From the NCBI GenBank assembly GCA_011056835.1, contig DSDU01000094.1, positions 1 through 44,858 on the forward strand: a stretch of DNA of 44,858 nt, written 5' to 3'. Under the pieces are notes generated by a model. It worked only from the letters and a program-made list of their open reading frames with translations. It was not told where the DNA came from and made no database searches. The position numbers were made by a program, and so were the translations under genes. The DNA comes from Deltaproteobacteria bacterium. Its GTDB lineage: Bacteria; Desulfobacterota; Syntrophia; Syntrophales; UBA6807. Positions 16,996 through 37,586 of this stretch are shown piece after piece (within the stretch, counting starts at the first letter, position 1; each line of letters opens with the position of its first letter).

Positions 16996-18030
16996 TCAAA
17001 TGAATTTTCGTTCATGCAATGGTCTTCCAGTGCCTGAACCTTCTTCGTCATCGCTTTCCTTGCCAATAATATCTTCCGCTTCCGAACGTTTGTATATAAA
17101 ACGTTCAAAAAGCCTGTGATAGGGTGTCCAGTTCGAGTCGTCGTCATTGGAACTGTCAATGAATTCCCGGAATGCATTGACCTTGGCATCCATATCGTCA
17201 ATCATATTAACAATCAGTGCTTCTAATGTTTTCGGTCTTTTCGGTGAACCGTATTCCAAAACTCCATGATGACTTAAGAGTATGTGTCTGAGTTCGAGTG
17301 CAAGCTGTTCGGGAAAACCTTCGATGTGAGCTATCTTCCTGTTGACCAGTTCAAGGCCGAGAATGATATGACCGACCAGCCTGCCTTCATCGGTGTAATC
17401 TATTATTTTCTGAAAGGAGAGTTCGTAGATTTTACCGATATCGTGAAGAATTCCTCCCGTTAGGAGGAGGTCTCTCTGTATGTTTTTATAATGCTCAGCC
17501 GTTATATCGAGAAGCCTTGTAACTGACAGGGTATGTTCAAGCAGTCCTCCGATATAAGAATGATGCATTCCCTTTGCCGCAGGGGCTCGTTTAAAGGCAA
17601 ACAGAATATCTTCATCGCTGAATATCTCATGCAGCAATGCCTTGAGGTGTGGCGATGTAATTGTTTCAGTCAATTGTGTCAGAGTTTCGAACATGTCGTC
17701 TATATCGTAGTCGGTTGTCGGGGAGTAGTCCGCCGGTTCAATCTGGCTGTCGTCGATCTTTCTGATGTGTGAGACCGCCAATTGAATGGTATTCCTGAAA
17801 CTAACCGCCCGTGCCCTGATTTCGATAACATCGCCTGCCTGGAACAGCTTGTTTATTTCATCGGCATTTTCCCAGACCCGGGCTTCCATGGTTCCGGTTT
17901 TATCTCTCAGCCGAAGACTAAGGTAGGGCATTCCTTTTTGCGATACGGCAAGGTTTTTGTCGGTGACGAGAAACAGATCATTGATCCTGTTCGCCACTTC
18001 GATATCTTTTATATATATACGCTTTGTCAT
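16996..18030 (-). CDS. OB-fold/HD-domain 3'-5' exoribonuclease, YhaM-like
   Basis: The 344-residue protein combines an N-terminal OB fold (about 20-105, with KGMPYLSLRLRDKTGTMEARVW) and a C-terminal HD phosphohydrolase domain with HHSYIGGLLEHTLSV, GGILHDIGKI and LSHHG. This is the architecture of YhaM (Cbf1), a 3'-5' exoribonuclease that trims RNA ends. The protein is about 30 residues longer than Bacillus YhaM because of an acidic C-terminal tail. The ATG at 18030 shares its first base with the fdhD stop (TGATG), so translation is probably coupled. A longer reading frame runs upstream inside fdhD but is not needed. The substrate here is unproven. Confidence 0.85.
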   Translation of the reverse strand: MTKRIYIKDIEVANRINDLFLVTDKNLAVSQKGMPYLSLRLRDKTGTMEARVWENADEINKLFQAGDVIEIRARAVSFRNTIQLAVSHIRKIDDSQIEPADYSPTTDYDIDDMFETLTQLTETITSPHLKALLHEIFSDEDILFAFKRAPAAKGMHHSYIGGLLEHTLSVTRLLDITAEHYKNIQRDLLLTGGILHDIGKIYELSFQKIIDYTDEGRLVGHIILGLELVNRKIAHIEGFPEQLALELRHILLSHHGVLEYGSPKRPKTLEALIVNMIDDMDAKVNAFREFIDSSNDDDSNWTPYHRLFERFIYKRSEAEDIIGKESDDEEGSGTGRPLHERKFI

Positions 18031-18806
18031 CAAAAATTCACCCGTTCTTCGTGAGAATATACTCTCATCGTTCCCTTTCTCATATAGCCGATAATAGTGA
18101 TTCCCGCTTCGAACGCAGTTGTAATTGCCCGTGAAGTGGGAACGGCATGTGATAAAATGACCGGTATCCCCAGATTCCACACCTTATAAACTATTTCCGT
18201 GGACACCCGCCCTGTTGTGGCGATGATCATGTCTGCACAATTCATGTTTGACAGCAGAGAAAAGCCCCCGATCATATCAAATGTATTGTGCCGCCCGATG
18301 TCTTCTCTCGATATAATAAAGGTTCCATCCGCATTGATGAGTGACGAACAATGCGTTCCATGAGTAATGCCGTGTATCACCGTTGATGCAAGATGCCTTT
18401 TCATAAGATCAAGAGTATTCGGAGCGGAAATCCGTAAGCCCGATGTTATGACCTTCCCCGGAGTTTCTATTACAGTTTCTTGTGCACCGCTTGAGAAGAT
18501 CGACTTCTCGGAGGAATTATTTATTTCCTTTTTAAGTGACACATGCACGTTTGTGATATCATCCGATACAATGATGCGATCGATATCCTCACAGGATGAT
18601 ATAATGCCTCCCGATCTCAGGAAACCCACTGCCAGTTCATCAACATGGATGCCGGCACAGGCTATGGTTACAATCTTGTTTCCATTGACATAGAGACCGA
18701 TTGACAGTTCTCTGATAATACTGTCGGTTACATATGAATAGGCTGTTCCGTCGTAGTACCTTATTGTCAGCTTGTCAATGGGTGGTAGTTCACCGCTCTG
18801 TTTCAT
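18030..18806 (-). CDS. fdhD: FdhD-like formate dehydrogenase accessory protein lacking the CxxC motif
   Basis: FdhD transfers sulfur from IscS to the Mo/W-bis-MGD cofactor of formate dehydrogenase. The 258-residue protein has the family blocks HVDELAVGFLRSGGII (54-69), the GITHGTHCSSLI region (146-157), SREDIGRHNTFDMIGG (166-181), IIATTGRVSTEIVYKV and SRAITTAFEAGITIIGY. At the position of the sulfur-relay motif CGxCG (near 104-111) it reads FSSGAQET, with no cysteine. Remaining cysteines are C50, C72, C153 and C190. Its start overlaps the selB end by 17 nt, fitting a formate dehydrogenase with selenocysteine. Whether it can transfer sulfur is doubtful; it may only chaperone the cofactor. Confidence 0.88.
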   Translation of the reverse strand: MKQSGELPPIDKLTIRYYDGTAYSYVTDSIIRELSIGLYVNGNKIVTIACAGIHVDELAVGFLRSGGIISSCEDIDRIIVSDDITNVHVSLKKEINNSSEKSIFSSGAQETVIETPGKVITSGLRISAPNTLDLMKRHLASTVIHGITHGTHCSSLINADGTFIISREDIGRHNTFDMIGGFSLLSNMNCADMIIATTGRVSTEIVYKVWNLGIPVILSHAVPTSRAITTAFEAGITIIGYMRKGTMRVYSHEERVNF

Positions 18807-20721
18807 GAGTCGTTCTTTCCCGGAGAATGCGGTAGTCCGCGACCCGTATTGTCAGCTTTGCCTTGTCAAAGTATTCCATAAGTGGAATCGTATATTTTCT
18901 TGACAGACCGGTCAAATCTCTGAACATCGCCGGCGTGGCCTTTTCATGCTTGATAAGGAAATCCCGATAGTCATCCTTAAGCTTATTGAACGGTATTGTA
19001 TGAAAATACATGTCCTCGTTGACTTTAATAAGAAGCCCCTCCTGAATCATTACCGACAACACATTATTAACATCTCTTATTTTATGAGAAAATTGCTGGG
19101 CCAGTTCCTTTATCGATGGTGGCGTCAAGTTTGCGTCTCGATATATTGCCTCAATTTCTGAACGAAGCACGTTCAGATCTCCCTTGAGATCCACACGATG
19201 TTCAGGCGTCCTCAGAAGTTCCTTCTCAATGATGATTTTACCTTCCTTCTCCAGATCTCGAATTGACCTGTTGAAAAGCTTTACCTCAATGTATCTTCCG
19301 ATTGTTGTTCTGAGCTCCTCCTTGGCATAGCCTTCCTTCAATGGAAATGCCTTATGGTATGAAATGGTGTCACGAAGTATTTTATCCTGCAGATGTTTAT
19401 ACGCAGGATAGGATACAACCGTCGATTCGTCTCTGTCCAGCAGCAGTGCTTCCTTACGGGAAAACATTTCCTCAAGAATTTTCATTTGTCTGTTCAGGGG
19501 GATTCCCGTTCTTACCGATAACTGGCGGCTGTTGATGCCGCTGAGTCCGGCACGTTCGAGAATAACCTCCGTTTTTTGAAGGTCACCGCCGCTTTTCAAG
19601 AGCGGTAGCTGATCGAATTTATTTTCAGATGAACGCTTGTATTTTATCGCGACAGGATCGAGAATTTTCCCTCCGCCGATCGTTGTCATTGGTGAATAAC
19701 TGCGTATGACGAATCGATCATCGGCCATTGCCACCGCCGGCGATTCGAGCAGAATCTGGGCAAACACTTCTTCTCCCGGTTCGACTTCATTTCTACCGGG
19801 GAAAATGATCCGGGATATGATTTCGTTTGTGCCGATATGAAATCGGACAGGAGCACGGTTTTTTAGTTTTTTACCAGAAGATGAGAGATATCGAAGTAAT
19901 ATATCCATCCTGAGCGATGGCTTGAATGTGTCCGGTGCCGTCAGAACATCGCCTCTGTTCAGGACCTCTTTATCCACCCCTTGAAGGTTCATTGCGGTTC
20001 GCTGACCGGCGAACGCGCTTACCTCGGATTGACCATGAATCTGAATTCCCCTGATTTTTGCCTTTAACTTGTGCGGCATTATATCGACGGTGTCACCCAC
20101 AGTGATTCTTCCCGACACAAGAGTCCCCGTGACAACCGTTCCAAAACCTTTCATGGAAAATACTCGGTCAATAGGAAGCCTGAAAAAGCCGGCATCGCTC
20201 CGCTCGTCCGTAGTGGAAATGATCTGCTCAAGTGCCGATGTAAAATTAGAAATGCCGTCACCGGTTATGGCGGAAAGAGGAATAATCGGCGCCTGTTCGA
20301 GAAATGTGTCCTGCAAAAACTCACGGATGTCTTCGGTGACGAGATCAACCCAGTCCCGATCAACGAGGTCTATTTTTGTAAGGGCCACGATGCCCTTTTT
20401 GATGCCGAGGAGCTGGCAAATATTGAGATGTTCCGTTGTCTGAGGCATAATGCCTTCATCTGCTGCAATCACCATAACAACCACATCGATTCCACCTGCA
20501 CCTGCCACCATGTTTTTTACGAACCGTTCGTGACCGGGGACATCAACAATTCCGACGTGCTGCCCGTTTCGCAGCAGGAATTGGGCAAACCCGAGTTCTA
20601 TGGTGATGCCCCTTTCTTTTTCTTCTTTGAGGCGGTCCGTATCAATACCGGTGAGAGCTTTTATAAGTGCGGTTTTACCATGATCAACGTGGCCCGCTGT
20701 GCCGAGAATGATGTGCTTCAT
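18790..20721 (-). CDS. selB: Selenocysteine-specific elongation factor SelB
   Basis: SelB delivers Sec-tRNA(Sec) to UGA codons marked by a SECIS element. The 643-residue protein starts [17 protein letters not shown], with the G1 motif at 10-17, then DVPGHE and TKID, followed by EF-Tu-like domains II and III. The long C-terminal half consists of winged-helix repeats ending in the SECIS-binding module [26 protein letters not shown] start at the ATG at 20721, preceded by AGAGGAACG, and discard 19 upstream codons. It leads the selB-fdhD-HD operon. selA, selD and the tRNA-Sec gene are not in the window. Confidence 0.96.
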
Positions 20722-20781
20722 GAAATCGTTCCTCTGTAATGTTCCTTCCGCATCCGACCATCCGGCAATTTTTACCACCGC

Positions 20782-21682: not shown

Positions 21683-22713
21683 CGGATAACACAACGAAAT
21701 CGAGATTTATCATCCCGGTGCTCTTTGGTGCCGGCTTGCTGTTTGGTCTGCTTATCATCATATTTTTTATTTTCTATGACTATATTTACACACCGGTCCT
21801 CGGCAGAGAGTATGATTCGACGGTGACCGTAGAGATTCCCCGGGGAGCCAGCTTTTCCACAACGACCGATCTGCTGGAACGATCCGGTTTCATAACAAAC
21901 AGAAAGTTGTTTTATGTGCTCGCTTTTGCAAAAGGCGCCCCTTCTCACATAAGAAGGGGTGAATATGAATTAACCGGTTCCATGTCGCCTCTCGACATCC
22001 TCAACAAGCTTTTAAAGGGAGAGGTCAAGGGATACCGCATACCTGTCCCCGAGGGATTTACAGTGCAGCAGGTAGCTACTCGACTGTCCGCCTGGCGTCT
22101 TGTCGATGAGGATCGATTTCTCAATCTTTCAGCTGATGAAGAATTGCTGAAATCACTTTCCATCAGCGGGACAAGTGTTGAAGGGTATCTTTTCCCCGAC
22201 ACCTATTTACTGACTAAACTCATGGATGAATCTGAAATTATTAAGTTTATGGTCCGTCGCTTTCGCACAGTGGTTACTCCTGATATGAATGCCCGTGCAC
22301 GGGAGCTCGGTTTCAGTATCGAAGAAATTATTATCTTGGCTTCAATCATAGAAAAGGAGGGTGGAATATCGGAAGAAAGGCCGTTTATTTCTGCAGTGTT
22401 TCACAACAGACTGAAGAAAGGAATGAGACTGCAAAGTGACCCCACCGTCATTTATGGTTTGAAAGACTTTGACGGCAATCTGACAAGGAAAGATCTAAGA
22501 GAGAAAACACCATATAACACATACCGGATTAAGGGACTGCCGCCGGGACCGATATGTAATCCCGGTTTAGAATCAATTCAGGCAGCCCTGCATCCGGCAC
22601 CCATTGATTGTCTCTATTTTGTTTCCAAAAACAATGGAACTCACCATTTTTCATCCAATCTCAACGATCATAATAAAGCAGTCATAAAGTATCAGATTAA
22701 AAGAAAAAGATAG
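21679..22713 (+). CDS. mltG: Endolytic murein transglycosylase MltG
   Basis: MltG cleaves nascent glycan strands near the inner membrane and sets their length. The 344-residue protein has one N-terminal transmembrane helix (about 12-35), a LysM-like segment (GEVKGYRIPVPEGFTVQQVATRLS) and the YceG catalytic region with the conserved glutamate in ILASIIEKEGG, followed by RPFISAVFHNRLKKGMRLQSDPTVIYGL and YRIKGLPPGPICNPG. I start at the ATG that overlaps the ruvX stop. It directly precedes the dcw promoter, which starts 12 nt after its stop codon. Confidence 0.95.
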   Translation: MTDNTTKSRFIIPVLFGAGLLFGLLIIIFFIFYDYIYTPVLGREYDSTVTVEIPRGASFSTTTDLLERSGFITNRKLFYVLAFAKGAPSHIRRGEYELTGSMSPLDILNKLLKGEVKGYRIPVPEGFTVQQVATRLSAWRLVDEDRFLNLSADEELLKSLSISGTSVEGYLFPDTYLLTKLMDESEIIKFMVRRFRTVVTPDMNARARELGFSIEEIIILASIIEKEGGISEERPFISAVFHNRLKKGMRLQSDPTVIYGLKDFDGNLTRKDLREKTPYNTYRIKGLPPGPICNPGLESIQAALHPAPIDCLYFVSKNNGTHHFSSNLNDHNKAVIKYQIKRKR

Positions 22714-22724
22714 AACTTTTTTGC

Positions 22725-22753
22725 TTGACAAAGAGGGGGCGCCTCTTTATAGT
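22725..22753 (+). promoter_or_regulatory. Main promoter of the dcw cluster
   Basis: TTGACA (22725-22730, perfect) and TATAGT (22748-22753) are separated by exactly 17 bp, predicting a start near 22760. The spacer is itself an inverted repeat, with AAAGAGG and CCTCTTT (22730-22748) around a 5-nt centre, so a dimeric repressor could bind between the two boxes. It is the best sigma-70 promoter in the window. Confidence 0.8.
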
Positions 22754-22762
22754 CACCCTTAG

Positions 22763-22788
22763 GTGGAGAAAAGTGGATGATTGTGGAG
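22763..22788 (+). promoter_or_regulatory. Three MraZ-type operator repeats
   Basis: GTGGAG, GTGGAT and GTGGAG begin at 22763, 22773 and 22783, exactly 10 bp apart. In Escherichia coli MraZ binds three TGGGN repeats with the same 10-bp period just upstream of its own gene. Here the repeats are TGGAN, lie in the first 30 transcribed bases, and the last overlaps the mraZ ribosome site. Autorepression by MraZ is the natural inference. Confidence 0.65.
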
Positions 22789-22798
22789 GGGGCATCCT

Positions 22799-23245
22799 TT
22801 GTCGGTATTTCGAGGAAGATATTACCACACGATAGACGAGAAGGGCAGAATTATTTTTCCCGCCAAGCTCCGTGAAATCTTTACGGATAAGTACGACAAC
22901 AGATTGGTCATAACGAACTGGGATGGCTATCTGCTTGTTTTCCCCTATGCTGAATGGTCAGTAATTGAAGAAAAGATTTTTCAGCAATCAATCATTCATA
23001 AAGAAGTGAGAGCATTTCAGCGGCTTTTTATGTCGGGAGCTGTTGACTGTACTTTTGATTCACAAAAAAGAGTTCTGATTCCCCCATCTCTCAGAGAGTA
23101 TGCCAAACTCGAAAAAGATATCATTCTGGCGGGAATGGGGGGGAACATAGAAATATGGAATCGGGAACGCTTTGAAGAAGAGTTGATACAGTCGAGCCAG
23201 AATTTCGAGTTTTACAGTAAATTGATGGCGGAGCTGGGGCTTTAA
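22799..23245 (+). CDS. mraZ: Transcriptional regulator MraZ
   Basis: MraZ is an AbrB-like DNA-binding protein that forms rings of dimers and represses the dcw cluster. The 148-residue protein contains two copies of the swapped-hairpin motif, [17 protein letters not shown] and [20 protein letters not shown] start at a TTG at 22799, which has GGAGGGGG at 6 nt and gives an N terminus close to the family's MFRGRY. A TTG 18 nt earlier is in frame but lies inside the operator repeats. It is the first gene of the dcw cluster and follows its predicted operators. After it comes an unusual 227-bp gap. Confidence 0.92.
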
Positions 23246-23472
23246 GATATTTACTGAAAATAAAAGCCTTTTGTGCGGGTGGCGCTGCCGACTCAACGAC
23301 ACAAGGGGAACGAAGGCAGTAAATGGTTGAATACTAAGATCGCAATGGTAAAAACAAAACTGACTTCTGTGGCTCAAATCCCGCCCATGAGCACTGTGAC
23401 TTTAACCATAAGCCGTTTCGTGACTTCGTCCCATGATCGGATTTTTCTGCCGGGACTTAAAACTGGAGAATT
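23246..23472. other. Gap between mraZ and rsmH without a recognisable gene
   Basis: This is the longest gap inside an otherwise compact cluster, 227 bp. A plus-strand frame beginning at the ATG at 23345 runs into the start of rsmH, but its product resembles nothing and has no ribosome site. I see no clear terminator, second promoter or repeat. It may only be a spacer. Confidence 0.4.
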
Positions 23473-24411
23473 ATGGAATCAGCCTTTCACACGCCGGTTT
23501 TATTGAGGGAGGTTCTTCATTCTCTTGCCTGCAAACCCGGGGGCATATATGTGGATGGAACGGTAGGGGGAGGCGGTCATGCGTTCGATATTTTGCGGGA
23601 TATACGTCCGGATGGGGTTCTTGTCGGCATCGATAAGGATGACGCCGCCATTTGTGCCTCTCGAAAACGATTGGAATGTTTCGGTGACAGGGCGTTATTA
23701 GTTAAGGGAAGTTTCGCCGATATAAAATCGATTCTTGGAGGCTTGAATATTAAGAAAGTTGATGGAATTATTCTGGATCTCGGCGTTTCTTCATATCAGC
23801 TGACAACGGCGGATCGGGGATTCAGTTTTTCAGCGGATGCTCCGCTTGATATGCGGATGGATCAAGAAAAGCCGGGAACTGCCTGTGATCTGATCAACAA
23901 ACTTCCGGAAGGAGAGCTTGAGAAAATCATCCGTGAGTATGGGGAAGAGTTCAGGGCAAGAAGAATAGTGAGAGGAATAGCGGTTCGAAGGAGTAAGCGT
24001 CCCATTATGACTACAGGAGAACTTGCTGTTGTTGTTGCCGATGCCGTCAGGGGTAGTCGCGTCAAGGAGCGGATCCACCCGGCGACGAAGACGTTTCAGG
24101 CACTCCGAATTGCAGTGAATGATGAACTGTCAAGTCTCCGTCGTGCTCTTGATGACGGTATCGATCTGCTCACTTCAGGCGGCCGATTTTCCGTTATTTC
24201 GTTTCACTCCCTGGAAGACCGGATGGTTAAAAATACATTTCGTACATGGGAAAAAGGGTGTGTATGTCCGCCGGAGTTTCCGCACTGCGTTTGTAACAGA
24301 GAAAAAAAAGCCATGGTGATAACGAGAAAGCCGGTAAAACCGAGTCAGGATGAAATTAACTTCAATCCACGGTCCAGAAGTGCGCGGTTGCGAACGGCGG
24401 AGAGGATTTAG
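23473..24411 (+). CDS. rsmH: 16S rRNA m4C1402 methyltransferase RsmH
   Basis: RsmH (MraW) methylates N4 of C1402 in 16S rRNA. The 312-residue protein begins FHTPVLLREVLHSL and has the SAM-binding motif YVDGTVGGGGHAFDIL (26-41), IDKDD, the conserved ILDLGVSSYQL with RGFSF..APLDMRMD, and the C-terminal FNPRSRSARLRTAERI. Translation starts at an ATG after GGAGAATT. The stop is one base before the ftsL start codon. Length and motifs are normal. Confidence 0.97.
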   Translation: MESAFHTPVLLREVLHSLACKPGGIYVDGTVGGGGHAFDILRDIRPDGVLVGIDKDDAAICASRKRLECFGDRALLVKGSFADIKSILGGLNIKKVDGIILDLGVSSYQLTTADRGFSFSADAPLDMRMDQEKPGTACDLINKLPEGELEKIIREYGEEFRARRIVRGIAVRRSKRPIMTTGELAVVVADAVRGSRVKERIHPATKTFQALRIAVNDELSSLRRALDDGIDLLTSGGRFSVISFHSLEDRMVKNTFRTWEKGCVCPPEFPHCVCNREKKAMVITRKPVKPSQDEINFNPRSRSARLRTAERI

Positions 24412-36750: not shown

Positions 36751-37586
36751 TGGCGCCATCACTCACGTCGATTATAGAAACACGAAAAAACAGACTGAAA
36801 AGGCGGTCGGGGAAGATCTTCGGAGATGTCGGTCGGTCGATAGCCTTGGTTACGATGACAGGAATCGTCGCCTTCGTCATGGTCTATGTTTACAATTTTG
36901 TTATAACAGCCCCCTACTTCCGTTTGGCCGCCATTCATGTGAGGGGGAATTCCCGAGTGGCGGAAAGTGATATTGCGCATCTTTCAGGCATCGGCACCAC
37001 CGAGAATGTATTGACATTAAATACGTCGGAAATTTCCAGAAAAATAGCGACTCATCCCTGGATACGGGAAGTAAGAATAGGCAGAGAGCTTCCCGACAGG
37101 CTGGTCATCGATGTCGTCGAAAGAACGCCGGCGAGCTTCGTGCTCATGGAGGGAACGCTGTACATCATGGACTGGCACGGGGAGATTTTCAAAAAAGTTG
37201 AGAATGACGACGATGTAACATTACCGGTGCTGAATGGAATGTCGTTCCAGGAGACCGTTGATCGTAATCTTGTACAACAGTCTTTGCTGCTCCTGGAATT
37301 TCTGGCTCAACGCAAAAGCTATCCCGCCCTTGAACATGTATCAGAGGTGTTCGGCCACAGGGAGTATGGATTTTCGGTCTATACCGAGGGTGGCGTATGC
37401 CTTCAGGTTGGTTTTGGAAACTATCGCCGAAAGTTGGAGCGATTAAAGCCCGTTCTTGTCGATCTGAGCAAAAGGAATAAGGAACGAATATTTATATGTA
37501 TCGATCTGACTGATACGGATAGGGTCGTCGTTAAGAGGAGCGACCTGTTTAACCGGGATCGTTTGACTAAGAGTTTCGAAACATAG
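36747..37586 (+). CDS. ftsQ: Cell division protein FtsQ
   Basis: FtsQ recruits FtsB and FtsL to the septum. The 279-residue protein has a basic cytoplasmic tail (KNRLKRRSGK), one transmembrane helix (about 34-57), a POTRA domain (about 61-130, AAIHVRGNSRVAESDIAHLSGI and HPWIREVRIGRELPDRLVIDVVERTPAS) and the FtsQ beta domain to the end. Its first ATG overlaps the murB stop; a second ATG follows immediately. A 49-bp gap with a DnaA-box-like palindrome follows. Confidence 0.95.
   Translation: MMAPSLTSIIETRKNRLKRRSGKIFGDVGRSIALVTMTGIVAFVMVYVYNFVITAPYFRLAAIHVRGNSRVAESDIAHLSGIGTTENVLTLNTSEISRKIATHPWIREVRIGRELPDRLVIDVVERTPASFVLMEGTLYIMDWHGEIFKKVENDDDVTLPVLNGMSFQETVDRNLVQQSLLLLEFLAQRKSYPALEHVSEVFGHREYGFSVYTEGGVCLQVGFGNYRRKLERLKPVLVDLSKRNKERIFICIDLTDTDRVVVKRSDLFNRDRLTKSFET

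Follow-up and report, generated by a model that had tools for sequence, protein, structure and literature searches.

The mltG–mraZ gap and its promoter

The window analysed here, meaning the whole stretch of 44,858 nucleotides (contig DSDU01000094.1, from a genome of the order Syntrophales), contains the start of a dcw cluster on the forward strand. The mraZ gene (22799..23245) encodes a protein of 148 amino acids from a TTG start codon, with DXXXR motifs at D13-R17 and D87-R91. In a profile search, the product matched TIGR00242 with 117.8 bits (cut-off 98.35), in a scan that used six extra N-terminal residues, from the TTG at 22781; identity to the Escherichia coli MraZ is 32% over 129 aligned columns. 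This gene, with both DXXXR motifs kept, is the single MraZ match in the genome. The 13 close relatives of the protein (67-86% identity) come from metagenome-assembled genomes (MAGs) labelled Deltaproteobacteria, Syntrophobacterales, Syntrophaceae or Syntrophales. The next gene of the cluster is rsmH (mraW; 23473..24411, forward strand; TIGR00006, 360 bits), which is followed by ftsL. Upstream, on the opposite strand, translations of the open reading frames at 18790-20778 and 18030-18806 resemble, by eye, selB and fdhD, respectively.

The gap between mraZ and rsmH (23246-23472) spans 227 nt and gave no Rfam match. It measures 110 nt in a genome of the same genus (L002) and is about nil in two other relatives (L003 and L004). 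Compared by eye, the 227- and 110-nt gaps have short similar stretches in common and differ by an insertion or deletion.

An alternative TTG at 22781 opens the mraZ frame just ahead of the third of the repeats described below. We consider the TTG at 22799 the likely start because it is preceded by a Shine-Dalgarno sequence and agrees with the MSVFRG-type starts of the relatives. Of the 62 distinct leaders compared within the order, 30 have ATG as their nearest in-frame start codon, 20 have GTG and 12 have TTG.

The stop codon of mltG lies at 22711-22713, and the short gap between it and mraZ holds a predicted promoter and three GTGG boxes. The promoter (22725..22753, forward strand) is of the sigma-70 type and would serve mraZ and the dcw cluster: TTGACA at 22725-22730, a 17-bp spacer at 22731-22747 and TATAGT at 22748-22753. 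These hexamers match the consensus at 11 of 12 bases, the only site above 9/12 in the 3 kb scanned, where five sites reached at least 9/12 and 4.0 were expected. TTGACA is kept in all 62 leaders, and the spacer is 17 bp in 57 of them and 18 bp in five. Within the spacer and its flanking bases lies an inverted repeat, AAAGAGG/CCTCTTT (22730..22748; arms 22730-22736 and 22742-22748). Both the promoter and this repeat are exactly, base for base, where a previous reading made from the sequence alone had placed them.

The three boxes follow the -10 hexamer on the forward strand, as GTGGAG at 22763-22768, GTGGAT at 22773-22778 and GTGGAG at 22783-22788. The GTGG cores occupy 22763..22766 (box 1, followed by AG), 22773..22776 (box 2, preceded by AAA) and 22783..22786 (box 3, which overlaps the Shine-Dalgarno GGAGG at 22785-22789). 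The exact 10-bp period and the position of the last repeat inside the Shine-Dalgarno, both noted in the sequence-only reading, are confirmed to the base. Three features by which a MraZ operator can be recognized are thus found together: direct repeats with a GTG(G) core at a 10-bp period, a position in the dcw promoter 3' of the -10 and 5' of mraZ, and a MraZ gene with both DXXXR motifs in the same genome. The exact E. coli-type box sequence, GTGGG (TGGGN), does not occur among the three.

Conservation of the GTGG triple

The pattern GTGG-N6-GTGG-N6-GTGG occurs once when both strands of the assembly (3.4 Mb, 261 contigs) are searched, and a reversed-pattern control has no match; a longer consensus of 27 bases, allowed up to three mismatches, likewise gives one match. 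By these two scans, the genome contains no further MraZ sites of the triple form. Within the window, the exact triple is the sole match even when 2 or 3 mismatches are allowed, with shuffles averaging 2.17 and 1.21 matches. Rarity in the window proves little by itself; it is the whole genome and the relatives that carry the case.

For comparison across the order, 80 records were scanned, of which 71 had a MraZ start identifiable by motif (the exceptions being L042, L050, L059, L073, L074 and L076-L079). Removal of eight duplicates and one Fictibacillus locus (L075) left 62 distinct leaders, which were aligned on the boxes; 56 derive from genomes of the same order or closer, our own included, and six from named MAGs whose order was inferred from MraZ similarity. 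The exact triple is present in 59 of these 62 leaders, and the other three score 11/12. Column scoring by itself yielded 58 exact leaders and the three at 11/12; the 62nd, L008, was read separately as exact, its boxes being beyond the 70-nt scoring range and measured one box out of register, and the column and base counts include it in that form. GTGG is found at box 1 in 62/62 leaders, and the four bases of box 2 are kept in 61, 62, 62 and 62 of 62. The box bases carry 1.68-2.00 bits, compared to 0.02-0.54 bits in the 14 bases upstream. Some sequence between the boxes is also well kept: AG follows box 1, AAA leads into box 2 and a TNATT-like run leads into box 3. The leader alignment, a check suggested in the sequence-only reading, therefore shows conservation of the repeats but, as discussed below, not of the spacer palindrome.

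Three unscored loci of the order were read individually: the triple is complete in L050, the leader of L042 contains N's and L059 shows no clear triple. In two of the aligned leaders (L018 and L046), box 1 overlaps the -10 hexamer (TATAGTGG), such that MraZ would cover the -10 itself.

At the level of whole genomes, 142 of 155 members of the order contain the exact triple, once each in most, compared to 19/155 for the reversed control, a count in which adjacency to mraZ was checked for a minority and a few matches are plainly second matches elsewhere. Six of the 13 genomes without an exact triple were read: one base is changed in three (G009, G014 and G018), the leader contains N's in G047, G026 has no mraZ match, and G025, the source of L059, combines a divergent MraZ with no recognizable triple.

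At the level of the phylum, the exact triple occurs in 32 of 59 sampled genomes (reversed control, 11/59). Coordinates read by eye place it directly upstream of mraZ in 31 of the 57 phylum genomes with MraZ; the remaining 26 lack the exact triple. The 32nd triple-bearing genome (G092) has no MraZ match and carries the triple at two places, with unlike spacers. Among 30 phylum loci chosen as the best-scoring MraZ matches, hence not a random sample, one (L104) belongs to the same order and was omitted; of the other 29, 13 score 12/12 and eight score 11/12, a single locus scores 10 and three score at most 8, and no start was found in four (L084, L085, L100 and L107). Two additional arrangements were observed in relatives. 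In L109 (from G076, of the phylum), two consecutive GTGG triples precede mraZ, the second offset by 11 instead of 10 bases, and contig 1 of G071 contains two GTGGACAGGT-type 10-bp repeat arrays away from mraZ, at 1932764-1932837 and 2488503-2488546.

The base that follows GTGG behaves differently. Among the 62 leaders of the order, A follows boxes 1, 2 and 3 in 56, 38 and 52 cases, respectively; in the other orders (63 boxes from 21 scored loci), T (27) and G (23) are more common than A (11) and C (2). Judging from these alignments, this base varies between clades and does not appear to be part of the core, which is GTGG. The proposal that TGGA constitutes a distinct type of box consequently fails, given that the fifth base varies and box 2 has A in only 38 of 62 leaders. 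The A after box 3 can be attributed to the overlap of this box with GGAGG; for the A after box 1, the Shine-Dalgarno overlap provides no explanation. No MraZ residue linked to the base after GTGG stood out in an inspection by eye, made with no statistic.

In 59 of the 62 leaders, the five bases starting from the third position of box 3 are GGAGG (50) or GGGGG (9), the exceptions being L053, L055 and L008. In 61/62 leaders, L008 being the other, the end of this stretch is 6-16 nt away from the nearest in-frame start codon. Other orders, for which 21 loci were scored, have the beginning of box 3 at 7-45 nt before the start codon, the distance being at least 20 nt in 17 loci. The overlap of box 3 with the Shine-Dalgarno is thus a trait of this order, although boxes close to the start codon are seen in other orders as well. 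A literature search that combined MraZ with Shine-Dalgarno and direct repeats returned no paper, which we do not take to mean that the box 3 overlap is new to the literature.

Alternative readings of the leader

The inverted repeat in the promoter spacer was suggested to accommodate a second, dimeric regulator. Perfect 7-bp arms are indeed rare in shuffled spacers (p = 0.0027 in 20,000 shuffles), for a palindrome that was picked post hoc. A second match, with two mismatches, lies at 37532 in the window, where 0.2 were expected in all, and arms of 6 bp, made of other bases, occupy this position in three relatives (L039, L041 and L044, of which two share a genus). In E. coli, a second regulator, PdhR, was reported upstream of mraZ, with 1.72-fold enrichment by ChIP and a weak gel shift (PMC3265435). 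Across the 61 relatives, unthinned, in-register pairing averages 3.48 of 7 positions, compared to 3.18 by chance (permutation p = 0.0016). However, the genome of the same genus pairs only 4/7 positions, 54 of the 61 relatives pair 2-5, and the outermost pair, which is formed in 59/61, consists of promoter-hexamer bases. When the spacers are thinned to 18 or 11, the in-register z falls to 1.1 or 0.8, whereas another register reaches 2.3 or 2.6; even in the unthinned set, register 25 scores higher than the register of the palindrome (z of 3.6 vs 3.1). With the excess pairing gone in the thinned sets and other registers scoring higher, we reject the palindrome as a conserved operator. A second dimeric regulator, unsupported by these comparisons, is accordingly very improbable, and the palindrome is most likely a species-specific coincidence, with the qualification that the few independent spacers make this a weak test.

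Another possibility is control at the RNA level. GGA motifs over the Shine-Dalgarno are typical of CsrA targets, and the GUGGA repeats of the leader could be read as GGA sites, the last of which would block translation of mraZ when occupied. The genome carries csrA, in keeping with such a reading. Of 60 genomes examined, however, 20 have a csrA match (14 among the 46 of good quality), and the exact triple is present in 35 of the 40 genomes without csrA, as well as in 19 of the 20 with it. The GGA of box 2 keeps its A in only 38/62 leaders, and in L018 and L046 box 1 lies over the -10 and so is probably outside the transcript. Conserved GGA motifs in company with csrA, the signature of a CsrA target leader, are thus not what these genomes and leaders display. 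Furthermore, the leader RNA (22760-22860) folds no better than shuffled sequences (z = 0.25, with 114 of 200 shuffles as good), and the Rfam search and the folding comparison gave no sign of a known RNA family or of structure in the leader. Because the triple is kept without csrA, the GGA in box 2 is variable and the leader folds no better than shuffles, we reject control by CsrA or at the RNA level, which we hold to be very improbable, somewhat more so than the second regulator.

Finally, box 3 does form part of the Shine-Dalgarno, but the notion that the repeats are a by-product of that sequence and chance G-richness rather than an operator can be practically dismissed, given that boxes 1 and 2 are conserved as strongly as box 3, the 10-bp spacing is fixed, the rest of the leader is little conserved and the triple is unique in its own genome.

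A probable MraZ operator and its known counterparts

The best explanation of the GTGG triple, to which we assign a probability of roughly 0.93, is that it is an ordinary MraZ operator through which MraZ would regulate its own gene and the dcw cluster. The identification of the 10-bp triple with a MraZ operator, already made in the sequence-only reading, is supported on three counts: the triple is conserved ahead of mraZ, occurs once in the genome and is laid out as in E. coli. With respect to the mechanism, we infer a start site near 22760-22761, the binding of MraZ, the geometry of the ring, and repression rather than activation. Under this model, neighbouring subunits of a MraZ ring would each read one GTGG on the same face of the DNA, and the bound ring would extend from about +2 to +25, adjoining and partly overlying the start site. 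Bound MraZ would then lower transcription of mraZ itself, of rsmH, ftsL and ftsI and of the genes that follow. In this order, box 3 doubles as the Shine-Dalgarno of mraZ.

A more speculative extension is that operator and ribosome-binding site are fused in this order, so that one set of bases would determine both the strength of the operator and the translation rate of mraZ, with a set-point unable to drift in one alone; even an action of MraZ on the leader RNA would be conceivable. The overlap is evident in the leaders themselves; functional coupling is our proposal, and we consider it unlikely.

With these observations, the autoregulatory site already known from the cell-division cluster is extended to an order represented here mostly by metagenome assemblies. 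They also suggest that the GTGG cores and their 10-bp period are invariant and that the following base may vary, a pattern that would make a better search motif than TGGGN; the overlap of box 3 with the Shine-Dalgarno is a minor peculiarity of the lineage.

Given the precedents in E. coli, Burkholderia cenocepacia and Mollicutes, the plain reading is that MraZ, bound at the start site, autoregulates the dcw cluster. The Mollicute site of Fisunov et al. 2016, as quoted in PMC8475190, consists of AAAGTG[T/G] direct repeats, and the locus described here resembles it in having direct repeats, with box 2 reading AAAGTGG. The same article relates that MraZ overexpression was accompanied by more FtsZ in M. 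gallisepticum and that loss of mraZ raised the mraW and ftsZ transcripts in M. genitalium. In B. cenocepacia (PMC7761207), the MraZ site is placed past the -10, 'as in E. coli', and over the start site; EMSA showed binding to a 250-bp fragment, in which four GTG repeats were recognized by inspection. The two sites have in common GTG repeats with a 10-bp period (7 + 3 nt in B. cenocepacia), located past the -10 and over the transcription start, which in our locus is the predicted one; the B. cenocepacia site differs in having four repeats, compared to three here.

The closest parallel is with E. coli MG1655, where mraZ is likewise preceded by a strong TTGACA promoter and three GTGG-led boxes at exactly 10 bp. 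The order there is TTGACA, the -10, 7-8 bp and then GTGGGAAATT GTGGGGCAAA GTGGG, the gap from the -10 to the boxes being 8 bp with a 17-bp spacer and 7 if the spacer is taken as 18. The boxes thus begin 7-9 bp past the -10 at both loci, and the idea that their placement in the leader departs from the known architecture does not hold, since the E. coli boxes also lie just past the -10. Two differences stand out. The boxes are GTGGA here and GTGGG in E. coli, and box 3 begins 16 nt before the TTG start codon here, over the Shine-Dalgarno, compared to 24 nt before the ATG in E. coli.
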